Shown: positions 56,494-58,323 of the stretch, piece after piece
Layout of the letters: each line of letters starts with the position of its first letter
Numbering within the stretch: the first letter of the stretch is position 1
Source: Collinsella tanakaei
GTDB taxonomy: Bacteria; Actinomycetota; Coriobacteriia; Coriobacteriales; Coriobacteriaceae
NCBI RefSeq assembly: GCF_030373545.1
Contig: NZ_JAUDCO010000007.1
Coordinates: forward strand, 1-64,000
DNA: 64,000 bases
Direction of reading: 5' to 3'
Notes under the pieces: generated by a model
The model's database searches: none
Told to the model about the DNA's origin: nothing
What the model saw: the letters and a program-made list of their open reading frames with translations, nothing else
Program-made: the position numbers and the translations under genes

Positions 56494-56931
56494 ATGAACG
56501 AAGGCTATTCCAAGGTATTCGTTTCGCTCGACGGCACCGAGCAGCAGGACTTCGTGCTTGCCCGCGCGATCAAGGTCGCAGCGAACAACGGGGCCAAGCT
56601 CATCATCGGCCACGTGATCGACTCCACGGCCCTCGAGTCGGCGGGATCCTACCCGGTCGACCTCATCGCCGGCCTGGAAGAGTCGTTCCGCAACTCCATC
56701 GCCGAACAGCTCCAGGAGGCCGAGGAGAACCCTGACATCCCCGAGGTCCAGGTCATCGTCAAGGCCGGCCGCATCCGCGAGACCCTGAAGGACGAGATGC
56801 TCGACGTCATCCAGCCCGACCTGGTCATGTGCGGTGCACGCGGCCTGTCCTCCATCAAGTACGCGCTGCTCGGCTCGATCTCGACGTTCCTGTTGCGCAG
56901 CACGGAGTGCGATATCTTGGTCGTGAAGTAA
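56494..56931 (+). CDS. Universal stress protein, UspA family
   Basis: 145 residues, one Usp domain. N-terminal strand KVFVSLDGTEQQ, IIGHVIDST, and the ATP-binding G-x2-G-x9-G-S pattern read as GARGLSSIKYALLGSIS. Ends DILVVK as usual. Binds ATP probably and is linked to stress tolerance; no specific partner visible. GAAGGAGG precedes the ATG by five bases. Two unusual hairpins follow its stop. Confidence 0.93.
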   Translation: MNEGYSKVFVSLDGTEQQDFVLARAIKVAANNGAKLIIGHVIDSTALESAGSYPVDLIAGLEESFRNSIAEQLQEAEENPDIPEVQVIVKAGRIRETLKDEMLDVIQPDLVMCGARGLSSIKYALLGSISTFLLRSTECDILVVK

Positions 56932-56945
56932 CTGCCGGTCCCTGC

Positions 56946-57026
56946 GCGGGCGGGTGGAACCCCTTCGCGGACGTCCTCGCCGCGTTGCGGCTGCGGGATG
57001 TCCGCGAAGGGGTTCCACCCGCCCGC
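56946..57026. repeat. Long hairpin with conserved cap, copy 1
   Basis: A 27-bp perfect stem (56946-56972 with 57000-57026; GCGGGCGGGTGGAACC and on) holds a 27-nt cap that begins GTCCTCGC and ends TGCGGGAT. The stem continues a few pairs into the cap. It starts 14 bases after the uspA stop. Confidence 0.85.
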
Positions 57027-57086
57027 TGCGTCAGCTGCTTCCCGATTGAACGGGAGAGATGGCTGAAATAGCTGTCAATCCCTGCG

Positions 57087-57165
57087 GCCTGCCCAGAATC
57101 CCCTGAGCCCACGTCCTCGCGCCTGCGGCGCTGCGGGATGTGGGCTCAGGGGATTCTGGGCAGGC
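57087..57165. repeat. Long hairpin with conserved cap, copy 2
   Basis: A 26-bp perfect stem (57087-57112 with 57140-57165; GCCTGCCCAGAATCCC and on) unrelated in sequence to copy 1, but with a 27-nt cap having the same eight bases at each end (GTCCTCGC ... TGCGGGAT). The two elements fill most of the 306-bp gap 56932-57237 between convergent genes. Confidence 0.85.
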
Positions 57166-57237
57166 TCGATTGCAGCCACCCCGACATTGAACAATTGAGG
57201 AATGGCGCGGCGTCTTTGGACGCCGCTTTTTATGGGA

Positions 57238-58323
57238 TTAGGCGGGGTTTTGGGGGATGTGCTCGAAGTAGTGCATCTTGTTGGATGGGAAGGTGAGCGT
57301 CACGGCGAAGCCGGCACCCTGCTCGGAGCGCGCCTCCACGCCGATACCCATCTTGTCGCAGAGCCGTTTGACCAGATAGAGCCCGATGCCGGTCGAACGC
57401 TTGGCGACGCGGCCGTTGCTCCCGGTAAAACCCCGGTCGAACACGCGCGGCAGGTCGGCCGCCGATACGCCGACGCCGTTATCGCTGACGGTCAGCTCCA
57501 CGCACTCGTCGGTGGAACCCTCGTGGCGCCGCGCCCCTCGGAACTCAACGGTCGCGCCATCCTCGCGCGCATACTTGACGGAGTTTTGGATGAGCTGCCC
57601 CAAGATGAACTCCATCCACTTGTCGTCCGTGAACACCTCCATGTCCAGATCGCAGCGCACCGGCGCCATCCGTGCCGCGATCATGGCGCGGGCGTTCGCC
57701 TTGATCGCCGTCGTCACCAGCGAGTCAAGCGAATGCTTGCGAATCAGGTAGTCGCGGTCGAGCGTTTCTGAGCGGGCGAAGAACAGCGCCTGCTCGATAT
57801 AGCGCTCGACGCGGTCGAGCTCCTCGTCGAGCGCCTCTGCCTTCTTGAGCGCCGCCGTCGAGTCACCATCAGCCGGAATCGATTCGGTCAGGTTCTCGAG
57901 CATCAGATGCGCTGCAGCAAGCGGGGACTTCGCCTCGTGCACCCAGGTCTCGATATACTCGCGGTAATCGGCCACCTGCCGCTGGCAGCTCGCGACATCG
58001 TCGTTTGCCGATTTGGAAATCGCCCGCAACGCATCGTAGACGACCTCGCCCTCCGCGAAATCGGGGCGATCGACCATCTCGGCAATCCACAGCGGGTGCT
58101 CGACACGCGACGCGGCCCGCTCAAGGTCACCGAAAAACGCCCGGCGCTGCAGCCACGACAGGACGTTGACGGCGAGCGCCGCGAGCAGCACCATGCCGCA
58201 GACCAGCAGGGCAACGGTCCAGCCGGCACCGGCGACCGTGAGCACAAAGCCGATAAGGCCGGTGGCGACGAGCACGATGAATGCCCCGATGAGCGACGAT
58301 TTGAGGTACGTGCCGTACGACAT
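57238..58323 (-). CDS. Sensor histidine kinase, intramembrane-sensing type
   Basis: 361 residues. Two membrane helices at about 11-33 and 37-56 with almost no loop between them, then the phosphoacceptor His129 in VHEAKSPLAAAH, N-box IQNSVKYA, and ATP-binding DNGVGVSAADLPRVFDRG and STGIGLYLVK. The short input region and HEAKSPL motif resemble BceS/GraS-type kinases, which sense cell-envelope antibiotics through an ABC transporter. No such transporter gene is adjacent. It follows its response regulator by nine bases in one operon. Confidence 0.9.
   Translation of the reverse strand: MSYGTYLKSSLIGAFIVLVATGLIGFVLTVAGAGWTVALLVCGMVLLAALAVNVLSWLQRRAFFGDLERAASRVEHPLWIAEMVDRPDFAEGEVVYDALRAISKSANDDVASCQRQVADYREYIETWVHEAKSPLAAAHLMLENLTESIPADGDSTAALKKAEALDEELDRVERYIEQALFFARSETLDRDYLIRKHSLDSLVTTAIKANARAMIAARMAPVRCDLDMEVFTDDKWMEFILGQLIQNSVKYAREDGATVEFRGARRHEGSTDECVELTVSDNGVGVSAADLPRVFDRGFTGSNGRVAKRSTGIGLYLVKRLCDKMGIGVEARSEQGAGFAVTLTFPSNKMHYFEHIPQNPA

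Follow-up and report, generated by a model that had tools for sequence, protein, structure and literature searches.

In the window, the whole 64,000-nucleotide stretch of Collinsella tanakaei DNA that was analysed, a universal stress protein gene (usp; 56494..56931, + strand; Pfam PF00582, E 1e-23) is followed by two long hairpins, an ordinary intrinsic terminator and a convergent gene. The first hairpin (copy 1, 56946..57026, + strand) starts 14 nt past the usp stop codon, and its arms at 56946-56972 and 57000-57026 form 27 perfect pairs. The second (copy 2, 57087..57165, + strand) has arms at 57087-57112 and 57140-57165, with 26 perfect pairs. The terminator, located 3' of both hairpins (57207..57231, + strand), has an 8-bp GC-rich stem and a TTTTT run, and the open reading frame beyond it (57238..58323, - strand) was read by eye as a putative sensor histidine kinase.

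The position and arm lengths of the two hairpins agree with the original prediction, and both fold far below shuffled sequences on the + strand. Copy 1 reached -87.7 kcal/mol against -46.1 (sd 3.4, z -12.2) and copy 2 reached -85.0 kcal/mol against -42.7 (sd 4.2, z -10.1), with 0 of 200 shuffles as good in either case. The caps enclosed by the arms are exactly 27 nt long in both copies and have matching ends (GTCCTCGC...TGCGGGAT), also as predicted. Within them, copy 1 carries the core strands UCCUCG (56974..56979) and CUGCGGGA (56991..56998) on either side of a variable inner stem-loop (56980..56990), and copy 2 carries the same core strands at 57114..57119 and 57131..57138 around its own variable stem-loop (57120..57130), all on the + strand; the UCCUCG strand of both copies is conserved in the larger alignment described below.

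The proposal of a constant cap held for the ends and failed for the centre, since copy 1 has the inner stem CCGC-GTT-GCGG and copy 2 has CGCC-TGC-GGCG. The proposal that the two stems are without similarity was slightly too strong: the stems have diverged, but a repeat alignment with a period of 140 nt matched the caps and their surroundings over 53 nt (72% identity). Given this period and the alike stretches 3' of the two hairpins (by eye), the window pair looks, from its sequence, like an old tandem duplication with diverged stems.

What stays constant in the tip is an asymmetric internal loop in which UCCUCG faces CUGCGGRA; the helices on either side of it are free in sequence. With its borders the core reads 5'-(G)UCCUCG / CUGCGGRA(U). 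The prediction that related genomes would contain a family with one conserved tip on locus-specific stems was confirmed, with a strict pattern search over 39 related genomes returning 27 copies, spread over 17 genomes of a single genus. The inner stem-loops vary with compensation (CCGC/GCGG, CGC/GCG, CCC/GGG, GCC/GGC and others). By eye, the stem sequence is mostly not common to different loci, and some copies share short stretches such as a GGAAGCCCC-like base or a CAC/TTAG loop.

Covariation was evaluated in two alignments. The first (A2, 30 sequences) was collected by the exact core pattern, so that the invariance of the core is by construction, which is not the case for the covariation of the stems: both sides had changed in 101 cells, where shuffles gave 31.3 and slid controls 8-25, and all five covariation measures gave 0 of 500. 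The second (A3, 89 rows, 85 of them distinct) was found by and fitted to a covariance model, and thus leans towards the model; it gave 295 cells against 100.3 in shuffles (0/500), with two weaker measures at 15 against 12.8 (pairs changed on both sides, 24/500) and 47 against 41.8 (further pair types, 9/500). In these model-found rows UCCUCG and CUGCG are kept nearly throughout, both stems vary, and CUGCGGAA is a frequent form next to CUGCGGGA. One C-G pair of the drawn core structure is unformed in 45 of the 85 distinct rows, mainly those with the CUGCGGAA form, so the drawn core pairing is only a candidate; the core may form a U-G pair with a 1x3 loop, or a 2x3 loop and a bulged purine. In the groEL 3' ends of four Collinsella genomes (L240, L245-L247) the core halves flank a further terminator-like hairpin, and in L247 the right half is broken.

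A covariance model, R1, which matches copy 1 at 56961-57010 (70.3 bits) and copy 2 at 57101-57150 (66.4 bits), had matches in 38 of 43 Collinsella genomes, and the window's genome alone gave 13 matches. In a sample of the class, 56 of 246 genomes were positive: 42 from one family, 10 from two other families of the order and four from the remainder of the class, among which E 3e-9 was the best value. Within one family, five genera carry the core. At E 0.05, a second model (R2) detected 16 copies in the window's genome, 12, 18 and 19 in three other Collinsella genomes, 22 and 24 in two genomes of a related genus, and 1 and 0 in two genomes poor in the element. With the cutoff at E 0.001, R2 matched 20 of 396 genomes sampled from the phylum; 14 belong to the same order, and the six outside it had single matches with E 1e-5 to 7e-4. 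A sequence-only pattern scan returned at least 117 stretches. Among the 80 matches listed, which were classed as coriobacterial or not by record title, both stems were present in 51 of the 53 coriobacterial loci versus 1 of the 27 others.

A well-formed capped hairpin was also found on a contig titled Krumholzibacteriia (L415), which could be a case of misbinning or a true outlier. Spread by phages was considered and rejected, as five viral contigs match the sequence pattern and none has the stems. Searches of Rfam 15 at the gathering score gave no matches in the window or in two sets of 7 and 6 further loci, and for 10 related loci there were weak matches only, mostly to microRNA models and all below gathering. 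A candidate structured RNA named after Collinsella, Collinsella-1 RNA (RF01700), appears in PMC2864571. It differs from the hairpins described here, RF01700 being absent from the matches for the window and the 10 related loci. No description of the capped-hairpin family was found in the open-licence literature, and the capped hairpins are a real family that is apparently undescribed.

Placement was counted over 88 rows (the 89 A3 rows minus one duplicate; a few other places were fetched twice), with genes called by our own codon-based finder, for which the window served as training sequence. Of these rows, 79 have a same-strand gene as their nearest upstream neighbour and nine have one on the opposite strand; none shows an overlap with a predicted gene. 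For 72 of the 79 same-strand genes, the stop codon lies 21-55 nt ahead of the model match. Thirty upstream proteins were scanned for families, with no evident common function or pathway and one protein without a family. They include Usp, an FtsX permease, a GHMP kinase, GroEL, phosphotransacetylase, a P-type ATPase, a semialdehyde dehydrogenase, pyruvate kinase, a protein of PurL type, BipA and homoserine dehydrogenase. For three of these proteins (GroEL, phosphotransacetylase, pyruvate kinase) the gene has the element in at least two genera.

At orthologous 3' ends, capped hairpins alternate with plain terminators. Inspection by eye of the phosphotransacetylase (pta) 3' end in nine genomes revealed five plain hairpins, with a T run directly behind four of them, three capped hairpins and one long uncapped hairpin. 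In the window's genome the capped pta stem ends GGGGCTTTTTGCGTTT and has a clear uridine tract. The uncapped pta hairpin of genome G008 (L288) is a perfect hairpin of ~40 bp in which base and tail are of the usual kind and the core is missing, and part of this hairpin resembles the 5' half of the tip type seen in facing pairs (see below). The 30 groEL loci, also compared by eye, have variously a plain terminator with a U-tract, a long hairpin without the cap or a capped hairpin, and hairpins of differing type often have the same tail, (C/T)TGCGTT.

The capped hairpins share with intrinsic terminators a stable GC-rich hairpin, a post-stop position and a sense orientation at the gene 3' end (79/88, and 23/29 in the second family described below), together with a U-rich tail at some sites and the plain terminators that relatives have at the same sites. 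They differ in their perfect stem runs, which reach 46 bp, and in the conserved internal-loop motif. The tail [CT]TGC[AG]T[TC] was found downstream of 20 of 99 distinct copies versus 2 of 99 in a mirrored upstream control, and TTTT downstream of 22 versus 11 in the same comparison. A U-tract is not evident at many copies, both window copies included, and by eye the tail at many copies is only CCUGCGUUU. Of 85 distinct copies, 14 have a separate canonical terminator in the 220 nt that follow, compared with one on the reverse strand (over up to 89 rows, duplicates included) and 2.6% at random window places. As many capped hairpins are without a good U-tract and a downstream terminator follows just these 14, some of them may not end transcripts.

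We conclude that the capped hairpins are best regarded as 3'-end hairpins of terminator type, a lineage-specific class whose conserved RNA core is probably a protein-binding site. Judging from the predicted structure, the covariation, the sense orientation, the place behind stop codons and the alternation with plain terminators, we favour with moderate confidence the reading that they are 3'-end RNA elements of the terminator kind, whose core would most likely be recognised by a protein, or by the polymerase together with a termination factor. The original suggestion that a conserved RNA loop is the functional part is supported, as both the strand bias and the covariation fit it. Under this reading, the hairpin directly behind the stop codon would be transcribed along with the gene upstream, and the outer stem would mainly have to pair, its sequence being able to drift with pairing largely kept. 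Recognition of the core near the tip, by a protein or by RNA polymerase with a termination factor, could strengthen termination, or could protect or mark the mRNA 3' end, in a subset of genes. We infer an action as RNA, an effect on termination or on 3'-end stability, and a putative binding partner.

Alternatively, the core could be an unbound nucleation point for the correct folding of long GC-rich terminators, with its constancy due to recombinational exchange of tips. This is suggested by loci with a common downstream flank and differing tip subtypes (L105 and L005/L006), by groEL sites that are capped, uncapped or plain, and by the long uncapped pta hairpin of G008. However, the unpaired and wobble positions are constrained while the helices vary, and the core is present in five genera of one family, so we regard a purely structural tip as unlikely.

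Recognition of the tip is further suggested by a second family. At the groEL 3' ends of a genus from a different family within the order, the hairpins have a tip of another kind (L257-L260). A pattern derived from these loci, AGTGCGCTKCGCGRAACY, has 3 to 14 exact copies per genome in all six genomes searched from that genus, and was absent from four other genomes. The second tip, AGUGCGC..GCGRAACY, is located on variable stems after stop codons (L305-L334), and these stems differ between copies and pair. Among 29 distinct copies, 23 lie behind a same-strand gene, 34-83 nt past its stop codon, four overlap a predicted gene and six are not sense 3' elements. The 3' side of the second tip and the CUGCGGAA form of the first both contain GCGGAA. 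That different clades keep different tips at the same place is the strongest reason to think that the tip is read by something.

These observations could be extended, tentatively, to a 3'-end code of the Coriobacteriales, a possibility to which we give rather less than even chances. A clade-specific factor would read the tip loop, UCCUCG/CUGCGGRA in the Coriobacteriaceae and AGUGCG/CGCGRAACU in the one genus of the other family; motif and factor would have changed together, and the stems would have been re-formed freely, perhaps by template switching between the arms.

Hairpins were also found as facing pairs within about 190-500 bp, in the 5' regions of genes by eye (L267-L273, L275). Four of these (L267, 1415-1814; L268, L269 and L272) represent the same locus, with a conserved GGAATGGAGGAGCGCATGC-like stretch in the spacer. 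Most facing pairs have a third junction type, CAG[core]CTG, which is lacking in L271 and in the second pair of L275. The facing pairs count against the favoured reading, since they are left unexplained by a plain terminator role; an antisense terminator or a role at the DNA level is possible for them.

A DNA-level element has also to be weighed for the family as a whole, be it a REP-like or mobile palindrome or a site for a DNA-binding protein involved in cruciforms, chromosome organisation or uptake. REP elements, associated with RAYT transposases, are extragenic hairpins with conserved irregularities, at times arranged as facing pairs. The capped hairpins resemble them in being extragenic and multi-copy, in their conserved irregularity and in their occasional facing pairs; they are very pure palindromes, and Y1 transposase genes were detected in all six element-rich genomes searched versus one of four poor ones. 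In contrast, the loci fetched for 12 of the 18 Y1 matches had no model match around the transposase gene, even at E 10, and most of the longer Y1 genes adjoin other, GGGGAC/GTCCC-like repeats (by eye). Copied REPs would share their stems, which mostly differ between loci here. The strong sense bias and the retention of gene-element associations across genera (groEL, pta and pyruvate kinase) also argue against a DNA-level element, which we hold to be quite improbable; the Y1 transposases that are present appear unrelated to the hairpins.

Among the fetched transposase loci, L296 and L298-L304 contain Y1 genes of the REP-associated type (by eye), most with short repeats of the above kind adjoining. 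A further locus, L297 (G000:C23:68453-68707), is an IS200-like TnpA remnant (by eye), which lies beyond the window at ~11 kb from the two usp hairpins.

A related comparison is offered by Neisseria, where DNA uptake sequences are carried in the terminators of unrelated genes, giving these a lineage-specific constant sequence. The capped hairpins likewise have a lineage-specific constant sequence, but no genome had more than about 24 copies, and their tip is an asymmetric loop, whereas the Neisseria terminators contain an inverted pair of one word.

The way in which the stems change was analysed in 61 strong outer stems, where positions between paired neighbours comprised 1503 Watson-Crick pairs, 31 G-U and 15 A-C, plus further mismatches. 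The slight excess of G-U over A-C (p 0.026 in these stems; 38 versus 26, p 0.17, over 87 elements) is a weak RNA-like bias. In three hand-picked comparisons of relatives (the APH and ATPase loci of G000 versus G016, and the GHMP-kinase locus of G000 versus G008), the tip including the inner loop was alike at 70 of 78 positions, the 5' flanks at 76 of 89, the 3' flanks at 96 of 128 and the arms at 116 of 186. The arms are thus the least alike, yet they pair; gapped alignment flatters unlike sequences in such counts.

Both-side changes and broken pairs were counted in eight comparisons, in which the drawn fold spans the whole stretch including flanking pairs and therefore inflates the broken ones. 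Both-side changes exceeded broken pairs in two of them, APH with 8 against 5 and ATPase with 8 against 4. In the other six the broken pairs were more numerous: 2 both-side changes against 9 broken pairs at the GHMP kinase (L141/L155), 0 against 4 at groEL, 1 against 3 in L092/L152, 4 against 21 in usp copy 2, 10 against 26 between the two window copies and 7 against 17 in L148/L149. In other pairs of relatives the stems are unchanged or imperfect. Selection for pairing would fit this turnover, as would template-switch correction of inverted repeats or the two together.

The original alternative, insertion of a cap with inverted copying of the DNA beside it, retains as its only trace the three hand-picked cases, where both arms change jointly and still pair and tip and flanks are more alike, but is otherwise unsupported and very improbable, because the variable inner stem means that no fixed cassette was inserted, and because no site with one arm only, as sought at empty orthologous loci, was seen by eye among the nine pta and 30 groEL sites, where the capped hairpin occupies the position of a plain terminator, or in the 3' ends of usp and the GHMP-kinase, APH and ATPase genes.

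Terminator hairpins are usually seen as generic stems with arbitrary tips. Here, one bacterial family keeps a single tip motif on such hairpins at genes that are unrelated and for the most part housekeeping, and a genus of another family keeps a different motif. The long stems, which stay paired during sequence turnover, would provide a natural test of inverted-repeat evolution. If the tip is read by a protein, as in the recognition reading favoured above, it would represent a new layer of control at the mRNA 3' ends of common human gut bacteria.
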